Of a DNA stretch of 47,421 bases, positions 16,155-33,623 are shown in pieces. Within the stretch, counting starts at the first letter, position 1; every line of letters starts with the position of its first letter. The DNA lies in IMG/VR virus record IMGVR_UViG_3300045960_000077, positions 1 through 47,421 of that record; one strand, given 5' to 3'. The notes under the pieces are model-generated. The model worked only from the letters and a program-made list of their open reading frames with translations, did not search any database and was not told the DNA's origin. The translations under genes and the position numbers were made by a program. This DNA is from a virus.

Positions 16155-17902
16155 TATTGTTGTCCTTCGAATCCTCCCAGCGGATTAGGGTTTCGACGAC
16201 CAGCAGTTCCTGGCTTTCTTGGCGTGATATGCAATTTTTCTCGTACACCAGCCATATATGCTTCAATTACATCTGTCAAAGCTTTAAGTTGTGGTATTAG
16301 AAGATCTTTTGTAATACCAGCTGACTCAGTTGTTGCTCTTGAAACTGACATAAGTTGATCACTAGCAATTGACATCATCTTTGCGTATTGAGTATCCATA
16401 CTACTTTGAAGATCTTTTTCATTAGCAACTTGACCTGGTTGAGCTCTAGCCAAAGCCTGCTGCAGAGCCAATCTATTTCTAGCATTTTTATCTAAACCAG
16501 CTTGACCCTTCACAGTAGTAATAGGAGTAACGGCTCGTTCGCCTGCAGCTTGCTCTAAAAACTCTGTAGATGTCGCCATGGCTTCAGCAGATGCACCCTG
16601 AAATACATGAGTTCCCACTCCAAGTAATCCACCCATTTGTCCCATAGCACTAAACGTTCTAGCAGCATGAGACATCATCTTTTTCCATCTAGGATCGTTA
16701 GATCCCATAGTTTTTGCTTCTAAGAAATCCATATAAGATGAGCCAGGATTAGCTGCCTGAAATTGTTGAAATAAAATCATTTCAGTAGCATCATTACCAG
16801 AAGCAGCAGAAGCGACCGCTTGTCCTGTTTGCATCAATGCTTGAGCAGCTGCGGGAGCTCCCATCATTTGTGATAAAGATGTGTTTGTAGCAGAATTAAA
16901 AATACCATTTCCAGCCGACGCACCAAACATATACGATTGGCCTCTAATCATTTGTGCTGCCTGTGCTAGTTGAGGTACTTGAAATCCCGTGCGAAGTGAA
17001 GCCGCTGTCAATTCATTTTCACTAAATCCCGTACGATTACCTATTTGAAGTGCTATAGCCATTTGTACAGGATCAAATCCAAAAATGCCCTGTTCGGTAA
17101 GCATTTTAGCTCTATTCATATTAAATCTATTGTAACCTCGAGCTCCCTGCGACATTATAGCTTGGGCCGCCGAAGCGCTCTCAGGAGCACTCATTCCCAT
17201 TTGTGCTAAAACTGCTGAAATTGCAGTGGCAGATCCTCCCGTACCTGCTCTCATCCCAGAAGCTGCATAATTACCTTTTTCTATTTGATAATTATATAAA
17301 TAATTTTCATTTATATCCATAGCAGCAGAGGGCATATATTCAAGAAAAGTCTGCCTAGTTGCTGCTCTTGCAACTCCTTCTCTATATTGACTTCCAAGCC
17401 ATGCGTTGCCGCCAGCGGCAGTTAGACCTCCTACAATCATGCCCGCAGTTTTAAGCCCTCCCAGCCCAGGAACAAGTCCTAATAGCCCTAAAATACCGGC
17501 GAAAGTACCTCCAATAGTATTGCCAAGACTTTGCTCTCTAGCTAAAGTTGTTTGTGCAACTCTTCCTTGAACGCCACTGAGCATTTGCATTGGAAGCTGT
17601 ATTGAATATTTCGCAAATTGATTCAATAAAGGACCGAGTATTGCTGTAGAAGAAGCTGCAACTTCTAATGCCTTAATATTTTTCTCTTGTGATTCTCTCG
17701 TCTTTGTTAGAGCATCAGCGACTCTGTCTAATGATTTTATTTGATCAGACGTCAGATCATTAATACTTTTTCCTGTAAGAGCGGGAGCTCCACCAGGACC
17801 TAAAATCGGACTTATTCCTCCAATTGCAGCTACAATTGCCTGTAAGTCAGCCTTTAATGAATAAACTGCGCCCACAACATCAGGAGGTGTTGGTGTTGCC
17901 AT
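16154..17902 (-). CDS. Tape measure protein
   Basis: The 582-residue product is rich in Ala, Gly, Met and Gln, largely helical, with a Gly-rich hydrophobic stretch at about 134-175 that could insert in the membrane during DNA ejection. It lies immediately after two overlapping chaperone ORFs and before the hub gene, the standard place for the tape measure. The rule of about 1.5 angstrom per residue would give a tail near 85-90 nm, which is an estimate. No lysozyme or peptidase motif is visible. The start overlaps the end of the chaperone ORF by 23 bases. Confidence 0.78.
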   Translation of the reverse strand: MATPTPPDVVGAVYSLKADLQAIVAAIGGISPILGPGGAPALTGKSINDLTSDQIKSLDRVADALTKTRESQEKNIKALEVAASSTAILGPLLNQFAKYSIQLPMQMLSGVQGRVAQTTLAREQSLGNTIGGTFAGILGLLGLVPGLGGLKTAGMIVGGLTAAGGNAWLGSQYREGVARAATRQTFLEYMPSAAMDINENYLYNYQIEKGNYAASGMRAGTGGSATAISAVLAQMGMSAPESASAAQAIMSQGARGYNRFNMNRAKMLTEQGIFGFDPVQMAIALQIGNRTGFSENELTAASLRTGFQVPQLAQAAQMIRGQSYMFGASAGNGIFNSATNTSLSQMMGAPAAAQALMQTGQAVASAASGNDATEMILFQQFQAANPGSSYMDFLEAKTMGSNDPRWKKMMSHAARTFSAMGQMGGLLGVGTHVFQGASAEAMATSTEFLEQAAGERAVTPITTVKGQAGLDKNARNRLALQQALARAQPGQVANEKDLQSSMDTQYAKMMSIASDQLMSVSRATTESAGITKDLLIPQLKALTDVIEAYMAGVREKLHITPRKPGTAGRRNPNPLGGFEGQQ

Positions 17903-18332
17903 TTAAGTCTTCCCAATCTTCTTTTGGAGTCATTAGAGATTCTAAATCTATATCTTCGCCTCTTTCAAGGCGTTTTACTAATGCGTCATATTCTTCAGTA
18001 TTTTTATAGATGACACGCTTATCATCCGTATCTTCTTCATCCTGTCGATTTTCTTCCCATCGATTAAATTCCGATTGCAAGACGAGCTCATATACAATAT
18101 CTTCATCGGTAAGGTCTAAAAAACGAGGATCGTTAGGAGGGAGGTTATACTTAGACCTATAAAGTAGATAGGCTAAGTTATTTTTAATTTCTTTTTTAGC
18201 TTGATCACGTAACTTCTTAAACGCAAAATCTTCTATGTCATCATTGGGGTCAACATCCGGGTCTTTAAGAGACTCGGTCGCGAGCTCACGTCGAAGGAGA
18301 TTCTGCCGGAGCCTCGTTACGAAAAAAGGCAA
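17880..18332 (-). CDS. Tail assembly chaperone extension, probably made by frameshift (gpGT-like)
   Basis: This 150-codon frame overlaps the end of the upstream chaperone ORF by 47 bases and is offset +1 (equivalent to -2) from it. Its only initiators are weak (TTG at 18332, no ribosome site), and the first internal Met is near the C-terminus, so it is probably expressed as a fusion, as with lambda gpG/gpGT and Mu. The product is acidic and helical ('DPNDDIEDFAFKKLRDQAKK', then 'TDEDIVYELVLQSEFNRWEE'), like known T domains that bind tail tube or tape measure. Its stop lies 23 bases inside the tape-measure gene. Confidence 0.72.
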   Translation of the reverse strand: MPFFVTRLRQNLLRRELATESLKDPDVDPNDDIEDFAFKKLRDQAKKEIKNNLAYLLYRSKYNLPPNDPRFLDLTDEDIVYELVLQSEFNRWEENRQDEEDTDDKRVIYKNTEEYDALVKRLERGEDIDLESLMTPKEDWEDLNGNTNTS

Positions 18333-18615
18333 AATTCTGATAATCAGTCAACATCTGACGAAGAGTAGCCCAATCAGATGAATCAAGGTCTTCTAGTTTA
18401 AGATCAGCAGGCTTGTCGACAATGACAATATTTAGTGTTGCAGTAGCATAGGCCAAAACATCGGCTACTTCATCTAATGTAGTAAATCCAGCTTTTAAAG
18501 ATGCATATGCTTGGCCTATTGCTATCTGCTCACCAACTTTTGGAGTTTTAAATCTTAGCTTATATTCTTTTTCACCAATTTTGTAAGTAAAATATTGCGA
18601 AATCTTTTGTGCCAT
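18286..18615 (-). CDS. Tail assembly chaperone (gpG-like)
   Basis: The 109-residue product, located between the tail tube and tape-measure genes, is the usual G-type tail chaperone by position and size. It starts MAQKISQYFTYKIGEKEYKL, is mixed alpha/beta and moderately acidic, and ends ...RNEAPAESPST. A T6 run near its end may let ribosomes shift into the longer downstream frame. Such chaperones coat the tape measure during tail assembly and are absent from the mature virion. The assignment is by synteny, not motif. Confidence 0.7.
   Translation of the reverse strand: MAQKISQYFTYKIGEKEYKLRFKTPKVGEQIAIGQAYASLKAGFTTLDEVADVLAYATATLNIVIVDKPADLKLEDLDSSDWATLRQMLTDYQNFAFFRNEAPAESPST
18320..18330 (-). 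other. Candidate +1/-2 frameshift site (GCC TTT TTT CGT)
   Basis: On the minus strand the zero-frame codons of the G-like ORF read GCC TTT TTT CGT, with the T6 at 18322-18327. Slipping +1 moves the Phe codon TTT to TTC, also Phe, and continues in the longer T-like frame (GTA ACG AGG); slipping -2 on TTT gives the same frame. The downstream frame is open only from just before this site. Confidence 0.6.
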
Positions 18616-21008: not shown

Positions 21009-21641
21009 TTATACATCGATATTTTGCCAAAAATCATTGCCGCACGATTTTAAGAAAATATTATTTATTGGGCCGTATATTTCATTCCACGTCTCTGGAT
21101 ATCTGAATCTCACGATCAAATGAACGTGAAATACATCATTCGGGAAAAACTCGGCATCTGGCGAAAATCTATCCGTATTAATATCCAAATCGGGCATGTC
21201 ATCATGATTCACTGAATATTGTTCGAGAATAAATCTCACAAATGTACCGAGAATACGTATTAAAAGTATCTGCTTACCAAGAATGTTTATTGAATAAACA
21301 CCTTGCATAATGTTTCCAAACTCGTCAGTTTCGACGCCGTCATCCATCGTTTCACTTCCCATCACATCGCCGATGGGTTTATTTGATTCAATCTGCGTTT
21401 CTTGATCCATGACGCAGACAATTACGGGAAGCATCGTTGAAATTGTGGAATATGTCGTGTGATATTGTATCTTTTCGTTTAATATGACATCTTTGAAAGC
21501 ATTTCGTTCCTCATCGCTTAAGTCCATCTTGTCAAAGAGGTATTTAAAAGTCTGATCGAACGAACTACCCAACGAGCTCAACGCAGTGAACGCCGACTGT
21601 ATGATGCGTAGTATTTTATATTCATTAAAAGGCAGAGACAT
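21009..21641 (-). CDS. Tail completion/terminator-like protein (putative)
   Basis: The 210-residue product lies between the giant disordered protein and the sheath gene, where neck or tail-terminator proteins are often coded. It contains 'MSLPFNEYKILRIIQSAFTA', a central 'LPVIVCVMDQETQIES', 'GVYSINILGKQILLIRILGT' and a late 'FFPNDVFHVHLIVRFRYPET', all suggesting an alternating alpha/beta fold. That fits gp3/gpU-type completion proteins, which cap the tail tube and sheath, but I cannot match a family. Its stop precedes the sheath promoter region. Its ATG overlaps the previous stop by one base. Confidence 0.5.
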   Translation of the reverse strand: MSLPFNEYKILRIIQSAFTALSSLGSSFDQTFKYLFDKMDLSDEERNAFKDVILNEKIQYHTTYSTISTMLPVIVCVMDQETQIESNKPIGDVMGSETMDDGVETDEFGNIMQGVYSINILGKQILLIRILGTFVRFILEQYSVNHDDMPDLDINTDRFSPDAEFFPNDVFHVHLIVRFRYPETWNEIYGPINNIFLKSCGNDFWQNIDV

Positions 21642-24600
21642 TATTCAGCTCCGTTATCGTCGTCCTCATCCTTTGATAAATCCTGAACTTCACCACCCGG
21701 ACCTACAGGCATCACTTTTGCGCCCTTAGTGATATAGGGAGAATCAGTTTGCCAAGTATTTACGACATCCTGCATAGATTTCTTGGCTAATTTGAGATTA
21801 TGCTGCCACACTTCTTCGGTTAGCCCTTCATTAAAGTCGTCTCTTTGTTTCTCATCTTTATTCTTAAAGTGAAATTTCTCGGCAACACGTTTTGATTGTT
21901 CGTGTTTCTTGGGATTATTACTTACATATCCTCTGCCCACTGCGTGGCCCGTAGTCTTGCCCGAGAAACCCTTATGAAGATCAGCAGTACGTTCGTCAAG
22001 AGATTTTGGAGCAAGTTTTTCTCTTAAAGAAGCCTCTTTTTTATAAGCCTCTTCTCTACCAGGTTCGGCTGCTGTTATACCAGGATTCTTGTCTCTAATT
22101 GCTTTGCTTTGCTTATAATCTGCCTCAGCTTTATGATCATAATCTTCGCCAGTTTGTTTTATCGACTCTTTCTTATATCCTTCACGAAGATCTTTATTTA
22201 AATCTGAATCAAGAGATTTCTGAGTTTTGTCTTCGGCGGTCCAACGACGGCCGCCATCTTTGATTGCCGAGTTTTTAGTCCCAACTTGAGATTTCTTTTC
22301 ATCGGCATCCATCTTTCGTTCTTTTTCTCTCTCGATCCCAGCATCAGGATCTTGACTTGATCCACCTCTACGATAACCTGATTTACGAGGACCATAATCG
22401 ACATTCAATGCCTTCACTAAATCAACTGTTCTCTCATCAATAGACTTTTTAGCATCTGCTGCATCGGCCTCTTCATACATCTTTTTAATCCGTATATTTG
22501 ATAGATGTTTATTGTGCGATATTCTATCGCCCTTTAGCTTTCCACCTTCGTCAATACCAAAATGAGATTCTAGTTCTTTCAAATCATCCATGTCTTCATT
22601 AGATGGTTGAAAATTATGAGAGTCTTCAGATTTTTCAGCTCTAATCTTAGCAGCCTGGCCATGTAATCCACCCATTTCAGCCTGTGTCAAGGCTTTCTTT
22701 CGAGATCCTTCAATGATTTCTTTCTTTCTGGCTTCTGAAAGTTGAGGAGTAGAGACCTTACCGTGATGCTTAGGATTTTTATGAGTTCCTTGAACATGGA
22801 TCTTACCCTTTCTAGTTCCAGGACCAAACATAGCCTTTTCCATAAGAGCATCGATAGATTTTATCAAATTATTGCTCTCTTCATCGACAGATAAACCAAA
22901 CCATGTATTTTTTGAATTCACTGGAGGGTTAGCCTCTCTTTCGGCTCTCTTCTTCAATCCTTCATTCATTTTCTTCTTCTTACTTTCTTTATACTCCGAA
23001 ATAATCCTTTTTCCCTCATCAGTATGAGGATTTTTAGGAGCAGTAGTACTACTATAATATTTTGCTTTTTCTTTCTCTCTTTTAGATTCTCTAGCTTTAA
23101 TTCCGCCAGTTCGGCTGTATGATTGATGTTTTTGCTTTGGTGTAAGATGTTCTTGAGCATCTTTTTCATAATCAGAGTGATTTTTAGGAGCAGTAGTCTC
23201 ACTATAATATTTTGTTTTTTCTTTTTTAGATTCTCTAGCTTTAATTCCACCAGCTCGGCCAGACGATTGATGTTTTTGCTCTGGCGTAAGATGTTGTTGA
23301 GAATCTTTTTCATAATCTGTAGATTCATCAGCATGATGTCGTTTATCGATAAATGTATATCCCATTCGTTTTGCTGAAACTTCTTTAAGTAAAAGATCGA
23401 TAGACTTCACAAGACTTGACTTCCAAGCACCCTCAACAGGAACCTTCACCATCTCTTTATTTTCTGTCTGAAGAGGAGTATTGCCAAATACATGGCCATT
23501 CTTTTTCTCTGGCTGTTTCTTTTCGGCTTTTCCTTCAGTCAAAACATGAGAATTGCACTTTTCAAGAAGAGCATCAATGGACGTGATTAAAGATTTCTTG
23601 GTAGCAGGCTTAGGTTTACTATAATCAGCCTCGTCATCTTCACTCCAAGTAGACTTTGGTTCCGTCTTTCTACGATGCTCTTCTACGTCTGCATAATGAG
23701 AAGCAGCGTCAGAATCATCTTTAGACTTACCCATTTCAGCTCGTTTCTTAGACTCTGCAGCTATTTCTGCTTGACGAATTGCTCTAGCTGCTTGATCCCT
23801 AAGACTTTCAGCTTCTTTGTGAGTTTCTCTTTTCACCATTGCTTCTCGGACTTTTGGATGAGTAGACCCTGATTTCTCTAGATCTGATTCTTCAGACTTT
23901 TCAGTCTTATGTTTAGATCGATAAGGCCAACTAGGCATAGGACCAGGATCAGCGGCACCTCCTGCGCCAGGACGAGATGCAGGAATTTTCGGATGTTTTT
24001 CATTCCATTCATCTTCTTCAATCTTATGATCACGAGAACTGTCTTCTTTCCAAGACTTATCCATTGACTTCCCCTGGGATTCTAATTTCTTTGCAGCATT
24101 TTCATCTGCTGTTCTAACAGCTGTTTCGCGCTTAGTGACAGGGACGTCTTCATCGTTATCGATTCGACGTTTATCTAAATTCCTAAGATAACTTTCTACC
24201 TTGGGATATGATTTAGCTTTATTGAGAAGCTCGTCTATAGCGACTCGTAGAGAAGCATTTTTGAGATCATTTTCACTCGTTATAGAAATTTCTTTACTTC
24301 CTTTTGTACCGTAACCAACATGCATTTTTTCTTCATAGGGATCATATAAAGATGTTGAATGAATTTTCTTCTTTTTTCCTTTTCCCTCGGTAACAACAGT
24401 GTGACCGCCACCAGAATGAGAATGTTGTTCTATTGCCCTTGCGTTTATTTTATAGTCTTTGCCCGCTTTTTCAATATCGAAGTCGACTTGAGATTTCTTA
24501 TTTCGACGATTATAATCAGCAATTCTAGATCGATTAACTTCATTATTATTTTCCCACTCGCTAGAATTATCAGCATGATTTGTTCTAAGTGGCGGAGCAC

Positions 24601-24676
24601 GATGAATAGCCTCGTGCACAGCTCGCTTATTAGAATCGTTGTAAACCTCGTCTGACTTGTCTTTTTTAGTTATCAT
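21641..24676 (-). CDS. Giant modular, charged, probably disordered protein with repeats
   Basis: The 1011-residue product is extremely rich in Lys, Glu, Asp, Ser and Gly and looks mostly disordered. Short amphipathic segments recur: 'SLITSIDALLEK' (362-373), 'SLVKSIDLLLKE' (421-432), 'NLIKSIDALMEKA' (603-615), 'LKNASLRVAIDELLNKAK' (138-155) and two 'KS[IL]DERT[AV]DL' segments (744-753 and 891-900). A roughly 48-residue unit beginning DYEKD (454 and 503) is tandemly duplicated. The C-terminus is acidic. No enzyme motif is visible. Related segments occur in the next upstream gene product and in the scaffold. The order (after head-tail adaptor genes) suggests an internal head or ejection protein, or a prohead-core component processed by the protease; this is inference. 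Shadow frames at 22.2 and 23.0-23.3 kb are not genes. Confidence 0.72.
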   Translation of the reverse strand: MITKKDKSDEVYNDSNKRAVHEAIHRAPPLRTNHADNSSEWENNNEVNRSRIADYNRRNKKSQVDFDIEKAGKDYKINARAIEQHSHSGGGHTVVTEGKGKKKKIHSTSLYDPYEEKMHVGYGTKGSKEISITSENDLKNASLRVAIDELLNKAKSYPKVESYLRNLDKRRIDNDEDVPVTKRETAVRTADENAAKKLESQGKSMDKSWKEDSSRDHKIEEDEWNEKHPKIPASRPGAGGAADPGPMPSWPYRSKHKTEKSEESDLEKSGSTHPKVREAMVKRETHKEAESLRDQAARAIRQAEIAAESKKRAEMGKSKDDSDAASHYADVEEHRRKTEPKSTWSEDDEADYSKPKPATKKSLITSIDALLEKCNSHVLTEGKAEKKQPEKKNGHVFGNTPLQTENKEMVKVPVEGAWKSSLVKSIDLLLKEVSAKRMGYTFIDKRHHADESTDYEKDSQQHLTPEQKHQSSGRAGGIKARESKKEKTKYYSETTAPKNHSDYEKDAQEHLTPKQKHQSYSRTGGIKARESKREKEKAKYYSSTTAPKNPHTDEGKRIISEYKESKKKKMNEGLKKRAEREANPPVNSKNTWFGLSVDEESNNLIKSIDALMEKAMFGPGTRKGKIHVQGTHKNPKHHGKVSTPQLSEARKKEIIEGSRKKALTQAEMGGLHGQAAKIRAEKSEDSHNFQPSNEDMDDLKELESHFGIDEGGKLKGDRISHNKHLSNIRIKKMYEEADAADAKKSIDERTVDLVKALNVDYGPRKSGYRRGGSSQDPDAGIEREKERKMDADEKKSQVGTKNSAIKDGGRRWTAEDKTQKSLDSDLNKDLREGYKKESIKQTGEDYDHKAEADYKQSKAIRDKNPGITAAEPGREEAYKKEASLREKLAPKSLDERTADLHKGFSGKTTGHAVGRGYVSNNPKKHEQSKRVAEKFHFKNKDEKQRDDFNEGLTEEVWQHNLKLAKKSMQDVVNTWQTDSPYITKGAKVMPVGPGGEVQDLSKDEDDDNGAE
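23033..23317 (-). repeat. Tandem ~48-residue coding repeat in the 1011-residue protein
   Basis: Residues 454-499 and 503-549 are near-copies. Each has DYEKD[SA]Q[QE]HLTP, then KHQS, then a GGIKARES element, then a KYYS..TTAPKN ending. The second copy carries about two extra residues. The copies differ at many codons, so the duplication is not recent. Confidence 0.8.
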
Positions 24677-24921
24677 GTCTCTTCATCCCTGCCTCTGCAG
24701 CCTTCCTATCATGAGGATCTTTGCTTTCGGCTAGTTTCTTAAGATTTCTCTTTGAGCCTTCACTTGTACGTTCATAGTGCTCAGCTTCAGTCGGACCAGG
24801 ATTGCTCATAGTCTGAACGTGCTTTGAATCTGGAACTACAAGTTCACCTTCTGGAAGCTCAGCTTTCTTCTTGCCACCTTGTGCCTTGTTCTTACCGGGT
24901 CGACCTTTTTCTAGCTCAGTG
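24666..24921 (-). CDS. -1 frame extension of the 561-residue protein (frameshift product)
   Basis: The roughly 230-base stretch between the stop of the 561-residue ORF (24911) and the next ATG (24676) is fully open in the -1 frame. After the A9 run (24922-24930) a -1 shift reads N-T-E-L-E-K-G-R-P-G-K-N-K-A and continues about 85 codons to TAA at 24666-24668, overlapping the next start codon by 11 bases. Composition matches the protein it would extend (Lys, Gln, Glu, Gly; an LEKGR motif). The only internal Met starts a 47-codon piece without a ribosome site, so this is more likely a frameshift tail than a gene. A homopolymer indel in the assembly is the main alternative. Confidence 0.62.
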
Positions 24922-26596
24922 TTTTTTTTTCGAGGATGGCGTCGAGTGCCTTATGAAGGTCGAAATCACCTTCAGAGGCATTCTTCAGCTTCTTCTGATT
25001 TTCCTCTGAGTTTCCTGTATCAAGCTTTCGTTCTTTCCATTCGGCAGTCTTGTCACCCTTTGGACGTGAACGAACTGTCACTTCTCCCTTTTCAGGTTCG
25101 TGACGATATCGTTTATCTTCCTTTGACTTTGGATGTTCAAATCGGCTTTCTGGCTTATCACTATAACTGATCTGCGTAGCCTTACCACCCGAGACCTTCT
25201 TGGAAACCGATGGTGAGCCCTTCTCGAGAAGGCCCATGTTTTCTAGAACTGATTTTGAGAAGTCCAACGAATAAGATTTATCTTTCATGTGCTCTTCCTT
25301 TTCCTTTTCGGGTGATTTTGCCCATTCGGCTCTTTCTTCTTTTTGACCGCCTTCGCCCTTTTCTAGGTCGAAGTCATCTTCTGATTTTTCAGCAGCCCCT
25401 GTTCCTAATCTATTCTTCAAAGCTTTGAGAGCTTCGGGATTCACTTTGCGATTAGTGAGAGGATTTTCTTTCTTTGGATTATTCTTTGAAGCAAGTGCTC
25501 CAGGTTCAGTATACTTTGAGTTAATGACTGCCTTGATAACAGTCTCAAGTCTTTCAGGACCCATAGTCTTGAGCAAATGACCAAGAGTTAGCTCATCTTC
25601 TGTCCATGACTTCTTGCTGACAAGAACATCACCATCATCATCTTCACCATCGGCACCGACTAATCCATCTTCAAACTCTTCTGGTTCATTATCAGTGAAG
25701 TTGTCAGACTTTTCAACATCATCTTCGCTGTCATCTTCTGATTTCTCAAGATCTGCATCACCTTCTGACTTCTGTTGTGATTCCTTCTTTGTGGCAGTTC
25801 CAGGATGATCTCCACCCTTATCGCCGTCGTGAACTGTGGCTGGTCGAGCTACAGCAGCATGTCCTTCGCCACCAATAGTATCCTCGGAGCCATCTTGAAA
25901 TTCTTCACCAGACTCATTCTTCTTAGACTTGTTGAGCTCATCTAAAATCTCTTGAGCTTGTGGATGGCCCTTGAGAAGTTGAGCCGTTGTAATTTCATCA
26001 ATCGTATAAGATCGTTTCATTTCTCTACCTCGAGGATTTGGATATTTCTTCTTCATTTCTTGCTGATGTTCATATTTTTCAACTTTATCGGGATCTTTAG
26101 TGTTTTCTAGAGTTTTAGGGTAAGGATGAGGATCAACCTGCTCATCTTTCTCTCGGCTCTTGAATAATTCAGGCATAGCCTTTCTATTTTCAAAAGATTT
26201 ATTTAAAAAAGAATCCATAGAAGCATTCTTTAATTCAGTTTCATGTTCGGCATTAGCAGGAATACGTTTATGTTGATATTCACCTGCACGTCTTACTCGA
26301 ATATCACCCTTTTCTTTGTCGAGCTCATAAGAATCAGCATGAACATTTGTTACTTTATCTTGATGTTTACCGCCGACATCATAATCATGTTCTTTCGTAT
26401 GCCAACGAACACTTGTAGGCTTTTTACTTCTATGTCCGTATTGCATAACTTCTTCTTTAGGAGCATCTAAATCATGATGCGTATCTTTAGCCCTTCCAAG
26501 CTTTACACGCTCAGGATTAGTAACTTTAAACTGAGTCTCTGATTTTCTTCCCTTTTCAAGCCCCATATTAGCTAATACTGATTTACTATATTCCAT
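24911..26596 (-). CDS. Modular charged protein with internal duplication (561 residues)
   Basis: The product is Lys/Glu/Asp-rich and largely disordered. The N-terminal block (about 2-134) and C-terminal block (about 444-557) are copies: both begin with 'SKSVL[AE]NMGL.EKG' and end in 'LKNAS' plus an amphipathic 'F/ID..L.K' segment. Two helices in the middle also match each other: residues 196-226 (SYTIDEITTAQLLKG) and 330-361 (SWTEDELTLGHLLKT). Residues about 231-285 closely resemble residues 75-137 of the scaffold. LEK[SG] recurs at 13-16, 283-286, 411-414 and 457-460. It may be a prohead-core or internal protein processed by the protease. Its zero-frame ends just after an A9 run. GGAG precedes the start. 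Confidence 0.7.
   Translation of the reverse strand: MEYSKSVLANMGLEKGRKSETQFKVTNPERVKLGRAKDTHHDLDAPKEEVMQYGHRSKKPTSVRWHTKEHDYDVGGKHQDKVTNVHADSYELDKEKGDIRVRRAGEYQHKRIPANAEHETELKNASMDSFLNKSFENRKAMPELFKSREKDEQVDPHPYPKTLENTKDPDKVEKYEHQQEMKKKYPNPRGREMKRSYTIDEITTAQLLKGHPQAQEILDELNKSKKNESGEEFQDGSEDTIGGEGHAAVARPATVHDGDKGGDHPGTATKKESQQKSEGDADLEKSEDDSEDDVEKSDNFTDNEPEEFEDGLVGADGEDDDGDVLVSKKSWTEDELTLGHLLKTMGPERLETVIKAVINSKYTEPGALASKNNPKKENPLTNRKVNPEALKALKNRLGTGAAEKSEDDFDLEKGEGGQKEERAEWAKSPEKEKEEHMKDKSYSLDFSKSVLENMGLLEKGSPSVSKKVSGGKATQISYSDKPESRFEHPKSKEDKRYRHEPEKGEVTVRSRPKGDKTAEWKERKLDTGNSEENQKKLKNASEGDFDLHKALDAILEKKTLS
24922..24930 (-). other. Slippery A9 run, candidate -1 frameshift site
   Basis: The minus-strand codons are CTC GAA AAA AAA ACA CTG AGC TAG: nine A in a row, including A AAA AAA, the canonical slippery heptamer. 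Slipping back one base continues into an open 85-codon frame. The zero-frame stops only four codons later. No obvious downstream stem-loop was checked by folding. Confidence 0.6.
25763..25807. repeat. Dispersed DNA repeat shared with scaffold gene (32230-32274)
   Basis: These 45 bases align without gaps to 32230-32274. The first 21 bases match at 20 positions and the last 11 match exactly, with a more divergent 13 in between. The encoded peptides share HPGTAT and ESQQKSE. The same distance is kept between the matching blocks, so this is common descent or recombination, not chance. Confidence 0.78.
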
Positions 26597-29530: not shown

Positions 29531-29560
29531 GAGAAAATTAAGTGGGCCCGAAGGCCCACT
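29531..29560 (-). terminator. Rho-independent terminator (UUCG tetraloop)
   Basis: Minus-strand reading: an 8-base GC-rich stem AGTGGGCC / GGCCCACT with loop TTCG, followed by TAATTTTC. It begins just after the stop of the second small collagen-like gene (TAA at 29566-29568). UUCG loops are exceptionally stable. It should end most transcription before the MTLY-start gene at 29146. Confidence 0.8.
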
Positions 29561-29565
29561 CTTTA

Positions 29566-29799
29566 TTAAGCGCCAGAAACGCCAGAGTAGCCAGAAGTTC
29601 CTGTTGCTCCAGAATAACCAGAAATTCCTGAGCCTGAATAACCAGATGTGCCAGCTCCTGAATAGCCTGAAGTTCCAGTAGCACCAGAATATCCGCTGAC
29701 ACCACTATATCCAGAGATACCCGAAACGCCTCGAGGACCTGTGAACGGATTAACATACTGATAACCAACTGTGTCACCAGCTTTTGGGTAAAGAGTCAT
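29566..29799 (-). CDS. Small collagen-like protein 2
   Basis: The 77-residue product begins MTLYPKAGDTVGYQYVNPFT, then GPRG and about 50 residues of Gly-x-Ser/Gly-Tyr-Ser repeats ending SGYSGVSGA. It resembles the protein coded immediately upstream and the large fibre at the left end. A GGAGG site precedes the ATG. The place just after the capsid gene suggests a capsid-bound head fibre. Conditional expression behind the capsid terminator is likely. Confidence 0.8.
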   Translation of the reverse strand: MTLYPKAGDTVGYQYVNPFTGPRGVSGISGYSGVSGYSGATGTSGYSGAGTSGYSGSGISGYSGATGTSGYSGVSGA

Positions 29800-29826
29800 T
29801 TAAAACCTCCAAATCAATTCTTTTAA

Positions 29827-30057
29827 TTAAGGCGCGTAGCCTGAGTAACCCGAAGCGCCGAGATATCCCGAATATCCTGATACGCCATATCCAGAAGTGC
29901 CCGAGCCCGAGTAACCTGAAGTTCCGCGAGCACCAGTATATCCAGAAACTGTTCCAGACATACCAGAATATCCTTGAGGACCACGAGGGCCTCTCATATT
30001 TGCAGGAATCTCATAGGGATAACCCGTTACATCGCCTGCTTTTGGATAAAGTGTCAT
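29827..30057 (-). CDS. Small collagen-like protein 1
   Basis: The 76-residue product begins MTLYPKAGDVTGYPYEIPAN, then 'MRGPRGPQGYSG' (one real Gly-Pro-Arg/Gly-Pro-Gln stretch) and Gly-Tyr-Ser repeats. It shares its first 14 residues almost exactly with the next gene's product. An AGGAGC ribosome site precedes the ATG. It sits right after the MCP terminator, so it is translated from read-through or a local promoter. Likely a head-fibre or decoration protein. Confidence 0.8.
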   Translation of the reverse strand: MTLYPKAGDVTGYPYEIPANMRGPRGPQGYSGMSGTVSGYTGARGTSGYSGSGTSGYGVSGYSGYLGASGYSGYAP

Positions 30058-30083
30058 TGATAGAGCTCCTTTTGCGAGTCTAA

Positions 30084-30180: not shown

Positions 30181-31623
30181 TTAATACTTTACGTTAATGA
30201 CTCTCGTCCACTTCAAAGGGGCAAAGAGAACGGGGACACCGTAGAGCAGGATCATCCACTTGTAAGCAGGAGCGATCGTTGCTAGATCCATCTTGACCAG
30301 CGGAGCCAACTGACGGAACGTGAGTACGTCAGGGGTCATCTGACCGATGAAGCATGTATAAGTATTAGGCATACGAACGCCTGAATAATCATATGCAGCA
30401 TCAGCTGTTGCAGCAAGAGGAATCGTCTGTACCCAATATTGCGTACCAGCAGCATCATCAACTTCGGTGATGAAGATGTCCATGAACTGAGCAGTATTAG
30501 CGTTTGAATCAACACCCGACACTGTAAAGCGAAGAGTATTAGATCCCGATGTTGTTACCGTACCACCAGCGCATGTCTTAGCAATTGTTTCTCCCCACTT
30601 ATTTCTAAGTGTGAAAGAAGCAGCATAGTCACCGGCGGCGACTGAATATCCTGAAGTAGGAGAACCAGCAGCGGTCATGGTAACAGTTACTGAACCAAGA
30701 GGCATTTCATCAGACTTGAGAAGAGTTGCTGCTGTAGGAGCTACTCTTGTCTTGTTCAAGAAGAAGGTTGGCTTTAGGTTAACTCGACCAGCCTGAGTCA
30801 TAAGACCGTCGATGTTGATGTTGACCTGAGTGTTACCAGATGCTGTTGGGAGAATTACTCTCTGTGCAGCAGTTCCAGCGAACTCTTCGTTGATCTTTGC
30901 AAGAACAGGGAATGGAAGATAAATATCAGTTGGGAAACCGAAGTTATCAACAACAGTCTGAGCTAGATCATTGACGATTGTGGTGAAAGGAGTTGAGGAG
31001 AAAGTAGTTCCACGAAGATCGTAGGTATTACCTGCACCAGTTCCGCCAGTAGAAGGACCGTCGCCAAGAAGCTTGTCAAGGCCTGCCCATTCAACATACT
31101 CTGTGGCATTTCGTCCCTTGTCATTTCCCCAGAAGAGGGAATTTTCAATCTGGCGAAGCATCCACATGATTCCGTTTGAGTTTTCCTGAGCGATAACGTC
31201 AGGAACCATCGTACGAACCAAGGTTAGAGGGTGGGAGACTGATCTGGTTGTACCAACGAACTTAACCAATGCGGCTCGTCTTGCGTAGTCGGAATTTGTC
31301 TGATAAGGTAGTTCACCTTCAGTCAAGAACCCACCGGCCTGAGTGCCGTAAGAGGTTAGCTGGTTGAATTCTTCAACCGTTGAATAAGCAGGTGACTTCG
31401 GAATATCTTTCCAGAAGTTGATGTGCTTATCTGTGAATGTGATAACCTTAAGTGAACTGTCCAGAGATTCAACTCTTAGGGACTGAGCACCCGTGGTACC
31501 ATAGTTTGAGCTACCAAAGGCTGCGCCGGCGGATAGACCATTGTCTGTTACGCCTTCGAGGGCTTTATTAAGAGCCGCGACATCCTGTAGGTCGCCGATT
31601 CCAAAACCTTGTACATCGTTCAT
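30181..31623 (-). CDS. Major capsid protein (HK97 fold) with inserted domain
   Basis: The 480-residue product is the capsid by position (after protease and scaffold) and composition. It has HK97-type landmarks: an N-terminal extension (about 1-60), an E-loop-like 'GGFLTEGELPYQTNSDYARR' (98-116), a spine helix 'QENSNGIMWMLRQIENSLFW' (146-165), and a P-domain end 'DVLTFRQLAPLVKMDLATI'. A beta insertion (about 310-405: strands such as 'YAASFTLRNKWGETIAK') looks Ig-like and is not part of the basic fold. The 29-54 segment contains a motif also seen in the protease. AGGAGGA is upstream. Terminators follow it. Confidence 0.9.
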   Translation of the reverse strand: MNDVQGFGIGDLQDVAALNKALEGVTDNGLSAGAAFGSSNYGTTGAQSLRVESLDSSLKVITFTDKHINFWKDIPKSPAYSTVEEFNQLTSYGTQAGGFLTEGELPYQTNSDYARRAALVKFVGTTRSVSHPLTLVRTMVPDVIAQENSNGIMWMLRQIENSLFWGNDKGRNATEYVEWAGLDKLLGDGPSTGGTGAGNTYDLRGTTFSSTPFTTIVNDLAQTVVDNFGFPTDIYLPFPVLAKINEEFAGTAAQRVILPTASGNTQVNINIDGLMTQAGRVNLKPTFFLNKTRVAPTAATLLKSDEMPLGSVTVTMTAAGSPTSGYSVAAGDYAASFTLRNKWGETIAKTCAGGTVTTSGSNTLRFTVSGVDSNANTAQFMDIFITEVDDAAGTQYWVQTIPLAATADAAYDYSGVRMPNTYTCFIGQMTPDVLTFRQLAPLVKMDLATIAPAYKWMILLYGVPVLFAPLKWTRVINVKY

Positions 31624-31650: not shown

Positions 31651-32619
31651 TTACTCTAAACCGAGTTTAGATCTTACTAATTCTGGTAGAATTGATGTGT
31701 CACCAACAGCGTCGAATCTTAGAACCATATTCGTATCTACGCCTTGATTTCCTGCCATTTGCATATCAAGAAGTCGGCTAGAGATTTCACCCTTGCTCAA
31801 CGTTGACTTGCTGAGAGAAGGATTGTCAATTCCCTTAATATTGTCGGCTGATTTGAGCAGAGACTTTCTGATATTCATTGTGTTAGCAATGTTGACGATT
31901 GCCGTTTCGAGCTCTTTGTTGGATTTTTCAAGTTCTTCAATCCTGTCAAGAGTAATTGCGAGTGATTTTGCCAATCCTGCTTCTACATATTCGGCTTCAT
32001 TGGACTTCTGAACGGTTTGTTCAACAAATTCACTATACTTCTCGTCGAGCTGGGCAACCGCCTTAGCTACAATCTCGGTGGTAAATTCGTCGATGTCAAG
32101 ATAAACTTCGCCTGGATCTTCGGACTTTTTAGCATCGTCCTTATCATCGTCGTCCTTCTTTTCATCATCATTGTCATCATCATCCTTCTTCTCGAAAGGA
32201 TTTTCGCCCTTCACAAGATCAGGATCGGATTCTGACTTCTGCTGTGATTCTGTCGAAGTAGCTGTTCCAGGATGGTTAGGTCCCGTTCCGCCGCCTTCGT
32301 GCTTAATTGTTGCCGGACGAGCTACTGGGGCTCTTCCGCCGGCGCCCTTAGGAGTCTGAATTTCATCCTGTTCGGCTCCGCCATCTTCAAAATCTTCGCC
32401 ACCTAGAGGACGACTACCGCCATCATGGCTACCACCAGCGCCCTTGGGATGCGTTCCCGAATTAGCTGCATTGGTCTCCTTTTCGGCTTCATCTTCCTTA
32501 GGAGCAGTCGCGAGTTCATGATTGACAGCCTCGGCTGGTCCACCTGAACCCGTGTGCTTTGTACCATAGCCTTGAGCTTTATTGATGAGCTCTTCGACCG
32601 CTTTAAGAATTCCTGACAT
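31651..32619 (-). CDS. Scaffolding/prohead-core-like protein, acidic and modular
   Basis: The 322-residue product lies between the protease and the capsid gene, the place of scaffolds. It starts with an amphipathic helix (MSGILKAVEELINKAQ) related to the 'SID-LL-K' helix in the two large proteins downstream. A Gly/His/Pro-rich, disordered part (about 20-135) follows, then an acid block of Asp with Lys (144-164), a coiled coil (about 172-250) with 'YLDIDEFTTEIVAKAVAQLD', and a C-terminus ending in 'SILPELVRSKLGLE', suitable for capsid docking. LEKS occurs at 230-233. Scaffolds are typically removed before packaging. GGAGG upstream. Confidence 0.75.
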   Translation of the reverse strand: MSGILKAVEELINKAQGYGTKHTGSGGPAEAVNHELATAPKEDEAEKETNAANSGTHPKGAGGSHDGGSRPLGGEDFEDGGAEQDEIQTPKGAGGRAPVARPATIKHEGGGTGPNHPGTATSTESQQKSESDPDLVKGENPFEKKDDDDNDDEKKDDDDKDDAKKSEDPGEVYLDIDEFTTEIVAKAVAQLDEKYSEFVEQTVQKSNEAEYVEAGLAKSLAITLDRIEELEKSNKELETAIVNIANTMNIRKSLLKSADNIKGIDNPSLSKSTLSKGEISSRLLDMQMAGNQGVDTNMVLRFDAVGDTSILPELVRSKLGLE

Positions 32620-32669: not shown

Positions 32670-33623
32670 TTACTGTAAGACATTAGAATCTTTAATAATT
32701 CTTACAAAATTATCGATTCCGTCAGCTCTATAAACGAGACCTACGATTTCTTCTAGCAGGACATCACTAGCCTTAGGATGTACTGTCTTGAGAAGTGTGA
32801 TTAACTCTTTGTGGGATTTTTGTGCTGTGCGAAAATTAGCATGTAGACGTGATTCTAATTCTTCTTCTGAACTTTGTCTGTTTCCTACTACTGCGTTGTT
32901 TTTAATAGCATTTGTGTTAGCGCCTTCAAGATCTTCCGTCCTAAGTGATTCATGACCCGTATAATTGCTACTACCAAATGAATGACCTGCAACTGCTCCA
33001 ACTTCTGCAATTGCTGCCAAATCTTTCTTGAGTGAAAGGTCTTTCATTATGTAGGAGACGATTTCGTCATAGGCAGGAGGAACGAAGGATTTTGAAACTG
33101 CTTCGAATGTAGCTTCAGTATTCACCGGGATATGTGTGACAGCAACGTTCGTTACTTTTGCTTTCACGATTTTTGACTTGTTGATCGCCGACCGGGCTAC
33201 GATTTTTCCTTCAATAGAATATCCTAATCTGCGAGGATGTCCTAATGATTTCAATTCAGTAGCTAGATTCCAAACATGGGTAGCCATCTCATTGTTAAAG
33301 AGCATTCCCTTTGTGAAGAAGCCGATGTGGTCGATTTTTGAGTAGACAGGAATTCCAATTACGTGGTTGGGTGAGTTGTTGTGCATCCAATTGAGCCAGC
33401 CCTGGTTGACATAATAGGATATGTCTAAACCCGATTTGATGATGCTTTCACCATCAGAATCCCAGGCTGGAGTTGAGGCATAACCTTGAATAAATCTCCC
33501 GGTTGCCTTAGTGGCATCAAAATTTTGATTTTGAAATTCCGCTTTATTCAGCTCGCCTTCGACAAACTCGATATTATCAGTATAAAACTGAAATATATCG
33601 TCGAAAGTTTTCGGATCTGTCAT
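32670..33623 (-). CDS. Prohead maturation serine protease (U35-like)
   Basis: The 317-residue product has the herpesvirus/HK97-type protease plan: 'GRFIQGYAS' (42-50), 'GWLNWMHNNSPNHVIG' with His 81, 'RLGYSIEGKIVA' with the nucleophile Ser 136, and 'AVTHIPVNTEA' with His 164, the second His. It cuts scaffold and capsid N-termini once the prohead is built. The C-terminal third (about 185-317) is helical and includes a copy of a capsid-protein motif (208-233). The ATG overlaps the stop of the preceding 62-residue ORF as TAATG. It should be active in the prohead. Confidence 0.88.
   Translation of the reverse strand: MTDPKTFDDIFQFYTDNIEFVEGELNKAEFQNQNFDATKATGRFIQGYASTPAWDSDGESIIKSGLDISYYVNQGWLNWMHNNSPNHVIGIPVYSKIDHIGFFTKGMLFNNEMATHVWNLATELKSLGHPRRLGYSIEGKIVARSAINKSKIVKAKVTNVAVTHIPVNTEATFEAVSKSFVPPAYDEIVSYIMKDLSLKKDLAAIAEVGAVAGHSFGSSNYTGHESLRTEDLEGANTNAIKNNAVVGNRQSSEEELESRLHANFRTAQKSHKELITLLKTVHPKASDVLLEEIVGLVYRADGIDNFVRIIKDSNVLQ

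Follow-up and report, generated by a model that had tools for sequence, protein, structure and literature searches.

An invariant A9 run as a probable programmed frame-transition site in a putative head-protein gene of an uncultured phage related to SPO1

The phage and its gene order

The DNA considered here, referred to as the window, is a stretch of 47,421 nucleotides (47 kb) that forms part of a 111,421-base virus record. Its source is an uncultured phage in a group related to SPO1. The major capsid protein is 37–42% identical to that of SPO1-like phages, and the order of genes (protease, scaffold, capsid, neck genes, a tail terminator-like gene, sheath, tube and tail chaperones) is broadly that of EalM-132 of the Herelleviridae. 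The sheath protein, however, is only ~28% identical to its nearest matches, and two large genes encoding charged proteins (561 and 1011 codons), which are flanked by the second neck gene and the terminator-like gene, have no counterpart in the EalM-132-type order. For these two reasons, membership in the Herelleviridae is not claimed despite the capsid protein and the gene order.

Two further regions of the window may be described here. Behind the capsid gene lie short collagen-like ORFs with GYSG repeats (29538–30083, minus strand), the copy number and length of which vary in relatives. At 17880–18615 (minus strand), a pair of tail assembly chaperone genes is found: a 109-aa ORF and, in the −1 frame, a second ORF that it overlaps at GCCTTTTTTCGT. 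The T6 block is also kept in the related loci L009, L014 and L015 and looks like the usual chaperone frameshift.

Features of the locus

The features of the locus are collected in Table 1. On the minus strand, the 561-codon gene, or main ORF, ends with ...ATC CTC GAA AAA AAA ACA CTG AGC TAG. One base back from the zero frame, translation continues as KKNTELEKGRPGKNKAQGG...AAEAGMKRHDN. This −1 frame, the tail, reads ..KKNTELEKGRPGKNK...MKRHDN and then the stop, with 85 codons running from AAC (24923–24921) to TAA (24668–24666). The zero-frame TAG is made from the Leu codon CTA of the ELEKGR block in the tail and the G that follows it. A re-reading of the sequence bore out what the original prediction had described: an A9 run at 24922–24930 with a zero-frame stop four codons on, an open −1 frame of about 85 codons with a TAA (24666–24668) that overlaps the next start (24674–24676, read as ATG from 24676) by 11 bases, and a motif in the tail (ELEKGR) like the one at the N-terminus of the main ORF (GLEKGR). 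The gap of about 230 bases that would separate the main ORF from the 1011-aa ORF if the tail were not counted was measured at 234 bases.

Table 1. Coordinates of the features in the window.
Feature	Position	Strand	Remark
Main ORF, 561 codons, Lys/Glu-rich modular protein	24911..26596	−	
A9 slippery run, zero frame GAA AAA AAA ACA	24922..24930	−	invariant in 7 lineages
17-nt block with the A9 run, ATCCTCGAAAAAAAAAC			
Zero-frame stop TAG of the 561-codon ORF	24911–24913	−	four codons past A9
−1 frame tail, 85 codons and TAA	24666..24923	−	frame-shifted product would be 643 aa
Tail start ELEKGR	24900..24917	−	conserved Phi-x-K-G-R block
11-base overlap of tail stop and 1011-aa ORF start, ATGATAACTAA	24666..24676	−	
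Downstream ORF, 1011 aa	21641..24676	−	composition like main ORF, repeated SIDALLEK-type motifs
Major capsid protein	30181..31623	−	37–42% identical to SPO1-like phages
Probable scaffold gene, between protease and major capsid protein	31651..32619	−	67-residue stretch in common with main ORF
Probable prohead protease gene	32670..33623	−	gene order portal/protease/scaffold/MCP as in herelleviruses

Neither the main ORF nor the tail gave a match in PHROGs, Pfam, solved structures or cultured phages, and no relatives were found in bacterial and archaeal genomes. The gene family of the 561-codon ORF is thus without a match in the libraries searched. As a single query, the 1011-aa ORF found no relatives in viral contigs; ORFs at the same position in the relatives' loci have motifs in common with it. 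Both large ORFs of the window (21641–26596) and L009 (5148–8352) contain repeated modules that end in IPANAxHExELKNAS and are followed by a helix-like (K)SxDxxLEK segment, and the number of modules varies among relatives.

Relatives of the locus

IMG/VR searches recovered this locus in L002, L003, L004/L005, L006, L007/L008, L009, L010, L014, L015 and L016. Where the site is covered, an A9 followed by C stands at the same place in L002, L003, L004/L005, L007/L008, L014 and L015. On comparison with relatives, as the original prediction had proposed, the same A9, followed by an open −1 frame, was seen again in six other lineages from seven metagenomes. The run is exactly A9 in nine of ten sequences, and A8 or A11 is present in none. 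In L016 the run is A10, which fuses the frames into one open frame of 512 codons. Over 5,162 bp, L015 (A9) and L016 (A10) are 99.9% identical, and no indel other than that in the run separates them; they form the single A9/A10 pair among the relatives, with A9 elsewhere.

In L009, the run is replaced by GACAAGAAAAGAGATTAA. One base past it begins a GTG-started ORF of 342 codons that contains two more modules and then the tail, which is in frame after KELKNASVFSVFDEILEKGRRGKNK and follows a further module of the same type. Parts of the kind that frameshifting would join in the window stand in one frame in L009. Since the run is absent from L009, the mechanism would not be essential across the whole group. 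Two arrangements that the original prediction had set against its own proposal, an A10 run and a separate tail gene, were each found once. L016, with its A10, encodes the fusion as one ORF, and L009 has lost the run but carries the tail in frame; the link between the frames is refuted by neither.

A scan with a degenerate DNA pattern returned mostly unrelated contigs among the matches listed, and a tighter scan added L142 and L143, both of which proved unrelated. ORFs that by eye resemble GIY-YIG homing endonucleases were observed at different places in the same gene cluster (L009 8342–8941, L002 4646–5242 and L008 2449–2964); the one in L009 is directly 3' of the remodelled tail gene.

Conservation of the run and the tail

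The A AAA AAA of the run is a heptamer of the X XXY YYZ type, set in the zero frame and 5' of the zero-frame stop in seven lineages. A programmed transcriptional realignment site is expected to have an unbroken run of at least 8–9 A or T at the frame junction; the run here is A9 in each of the seven. No other A9 or T9 is present anywhere in the 111,421-base record, while 3.8 would be expected by chance in the 47-kb window alone (dinucleotide shuffles), so that long A runs are avoided and this one has been kept.

A codon alignment was made from seven sequences (the window, L002, L003, L004, L008, L014 and L016). Among these sequences, which are related by descent rather than seven independent trials and which are near saturation at synonymous positions elsewhere, 120 columns are invariant as amino acids and just 21 are invariant as codons. 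Among the 23 Lys columns that are invariant, AAA is the codon in every sequence at just two, both inside the run; the other 21 are mostly AAG. The GAA and CTC ahead of the run are also fixed, CTC being the sole invariant Leu codon (1 of 10). By codon statistics from the 47-kb window, the gene favors AAG for Lys, yet the run is unbroken.

The pairwise dN/dS of the −1 frame is 0.07–0.31 where computable, with pS mostly 0.5–0.9 and some pairs saturated to the point of giving no ratio; by this measure the −1 frame is under purifying selection. Conservation of the tail begins at codon 4, ahead of any start codon, and the first possible start is at codon 35–39 with the exception of L002, which has a GTG at codon 28. 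The invariant residues include L7, K9, G10 and R11 of the alignment (tail codons 4–8, L-x-K-G-R), and a C-terminal block SKDP.DRKA.E.G.KRH is present in most sequences. Both the zero frame and the +1 frame close within 2–5 codons in each A9 lineage. Judged by these comparisons, the run, the frame and the protein sequence of the tail are all under selection.

A programmed frame transition and its mechanism

The selection on the run, the −1 frame and the tail, together with relatives that encode the fusion or the tail in frame, argues that the A9 is very probably a programmed frame-transition site that acts by RNA-polymerase slippage and/or −1 ribosomal slippage and yields products of two lengths. 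The majority would end at the zero-frame stop with 561 aa. In a fraction, the mRNA would carry an additional A through RNA-polymerase slippage and/or the ribosome would slip by −1 on A AAA AAA, so that translation continues into the tail and reaches 643 aa; the two forms may be made in a set ratio. Since the tail stop is about −11 to +2 nt from the start of the next gene in each lineage and the zero-frame stop is ~230 nt off, the frame change may also set the translation of that gene. Ribosomes at the tail stop would re-initiate at the 1011-aa gene, whose start overlaps that stop; the output of this gene would then depend on slippage as well, and such coupling is probable. The link between the two frames that had been suspected is supported as real and conserved, given the A9 in seven lineages. 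As for the programmed −1 frameshifting on A AAA AAA that had been invoked to explain it, the frame link stands and the data do not separate ribosomal from RNA-polymerase slippage; slippage of the ribosome on A AAA AAA and of the polymerase on A9 would both yield the same fusion.

There is about an even chance that transcriptional slippage acts alone, with the polymerase adding an A on the A9 and standard translation of the A10 mRNA giving the fusion. The run is unbroken in all lineages though the gene prefers AAG, and its last codon is AAA in all seven sequences even though A AAA AAG would also serve at a ribosomal site. The two other frames are quickly closed by stops, as described for Thermus dnaX (PMC5009743), and transcriptional realignment signals are listed as including An with n>7 (PMC3711429). 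Nevertheless, A AAA AAA is also valid as a ribosomal heptamer, and as a run for polymerase slippage A9 is at the short end. Classical −1 programmed ribosomal frameshifting on A AAA AAA, which we rate at somewhat below an even chance, is consistent with a heptamer that is correctly framed in seven lineages and with the second, typical arrangement that the same phages keep at the tail assembly chaperone (GCC TTT TTT CGT). A downstream stimulatory RNA structure, which would be in its favor, was not found: in folds calculated without pseudoknots, no stem-loop was conserved or unusually stable (z-scores of +1.0 to −1.9, no common fold). Inspection of the alignment identified no Shine-Dalgarno-like element 8–15 nt upstream either; in known bacterial −1 frameshift sites, such an element ~10 nt upstream is optional. 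With neither structure nor upstream element, only the run would mark a classical ribosomal frameshift cassette here. On this pattern, we lean slightly toward polymerase slippage over ribosomal slippage.

Phase variation, whereby the length of the run in the DNA (A9, off; A10, on) would switch the fusion between virions, is improbable. The L015/L016 pair would fit such a switch, but the A10 of L016 may be an assembly or read error, and an A9 that is constant across lineages near synonymous saturation, with neither A8 nor A11, argues against a free-running tract, which should vary more. It is very unlikely that the tail is a separate gene that initiates on its own: L009 does have the tail in a separate GTG-started ORF, but the run is gone there and the ORF holds two further modules ahead of the tail, while in the A9 lineages the first ATG lies past conserved residues. 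Homopolymers are error-prone and one relative has A10, and on those grounds the run might be considered a true A10 that was misread or misassembled. However, A9 is present in two other loci from the metagenome of L016 itself, and its recurrence in seven lineages, assembled separately from several metagenomes, excludes the mis-assembly that the original prediction had allowed for. An error in a true A10 is exceedingly unlikely for the window and is already refuted for the group.

Comparison to known systems

A programmed frame transition on a poly-A run is of a kind already known; the gene family here is without a library match. In Shigella spa13/spa32, transcriptional slippage produces a C-terminal extension of ~100 aa that overlaps the start of the next gene, the expression of which depends on slippage (PMC5009743). 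The end of the extension overlaps the next start in both cases; the Shigella genes belong to a secretion system, whereas here slippage is predicted from sequence in a gene of the phage head region. Poly-A transcriptional frameshifting on an A11 is known from Citrobacter rodentium tssM1, which likewise has an A run just ahead of a stop and two length variants per gene (PMC4256274). The tssM1 run is A11 and restores a large domain, in contrast to the A9 here, which would add a short basic tail.

Among phages, −1 frameshifting occurs in a structural gene of T7, the capsid protein gene 10A/10B. As with T7 10A/10B and lambda G/GT, the gene described here would encode a morphogenesis protein of two lengths by a −1 change near the 3' end. 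While the T7 product is a capsid protein and the lambda product a tail chaperone, the protein here is charged and core-like, and no stimulator was seen. The locus may be seen as a clean case of recoding, tested by evolution, in a phage morphogenesis gene that is not one of the familiar tail chaperones. The natural variants (A9, A10 and run lost) make its function and mechanism directly testable, and the tail is likely to have been overlooked by gene callers in most of these phages.

A putative role in the phage head

As the protein family has no library match, its role must be considered from composition, motif and gene position. From these, the charged 561/643-residue protein looks like a prohead-core precursor with putative protease sites. 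A 67-residue stretch of the main ORF is 55% identical to the probable scaffold (E 2e-13). A short motif, Phi-x-K-(A,S,G,C), is found 11 times in the scaffold (1.3 expected, z 8.4), 11 times in the main ORF (2.2 expected, z 6.0), five times in the protease (1.2 expected, z 3.9) and 12 times in the 1011-aa ORF (4.4 expected, z 3.7), all by within-protein shuffles on the 47-kb window in a test made after the motif was noticed. It is not enriched in the neck, sheath, tube, terminase, portal or most other genes of the 47-kb window; an unrelated 384-aa gene is also enriched (z 3.4). The enrichment was seen again in relatives. The capsid protein has a candidate processing site, ALNK|ALEG, at residues 18–21, where an N-terminal propeptide could end. 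The motif is likely to be a prohead-protease site, though the post hoc test and the 384-aa gene make it a lead and not a proof.

The first such motif of the tail is ELEK|GR in the window and LIK|GR, LTK|GR, LSK|GR or VEK|GR in relatives. If the motif is a cut site, the −1 frame begins by adding one, and the amount of a small basic peptide in the head would depend on slippage. The protein would then be a prohead-core or internal-head precursor cut by the phage protease at Phi-x-K|(A,S,G), and cleavage at ELEK|GR would free the remaining tail as that peptide. A tentative and rather doubtful proposal joins these parts: through slippage on the A9 run, the phage would control how much of a cleavable internal head peptide is made and, via the overlap of the tail stop with the next start, how strongly the next core gene is expressed; its prohead protease would cut behind Lys (Phi-x-K|A/S/G) and not behind Glu. 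A presumed head-core role and a recurrent short motif suited to a protease are features in common with the prohead core and internal proteins of T4 and SPN3US (PMC5694885, PMC10052503). The T4- and phiKZ-type prohead proteases cut after Glu (PMC5694885, PMC10052503), whereas the motif here ends in Lys and its cleavage is a prediction from sequence. The Lys-ended motif also offers a testable guess for head maturation in this phage group. The C-terminal part of the protease and the N-terminal part of the capsid protein have AG..FGSSNY....SLR.E.L in common, as if one had been copied from the other.
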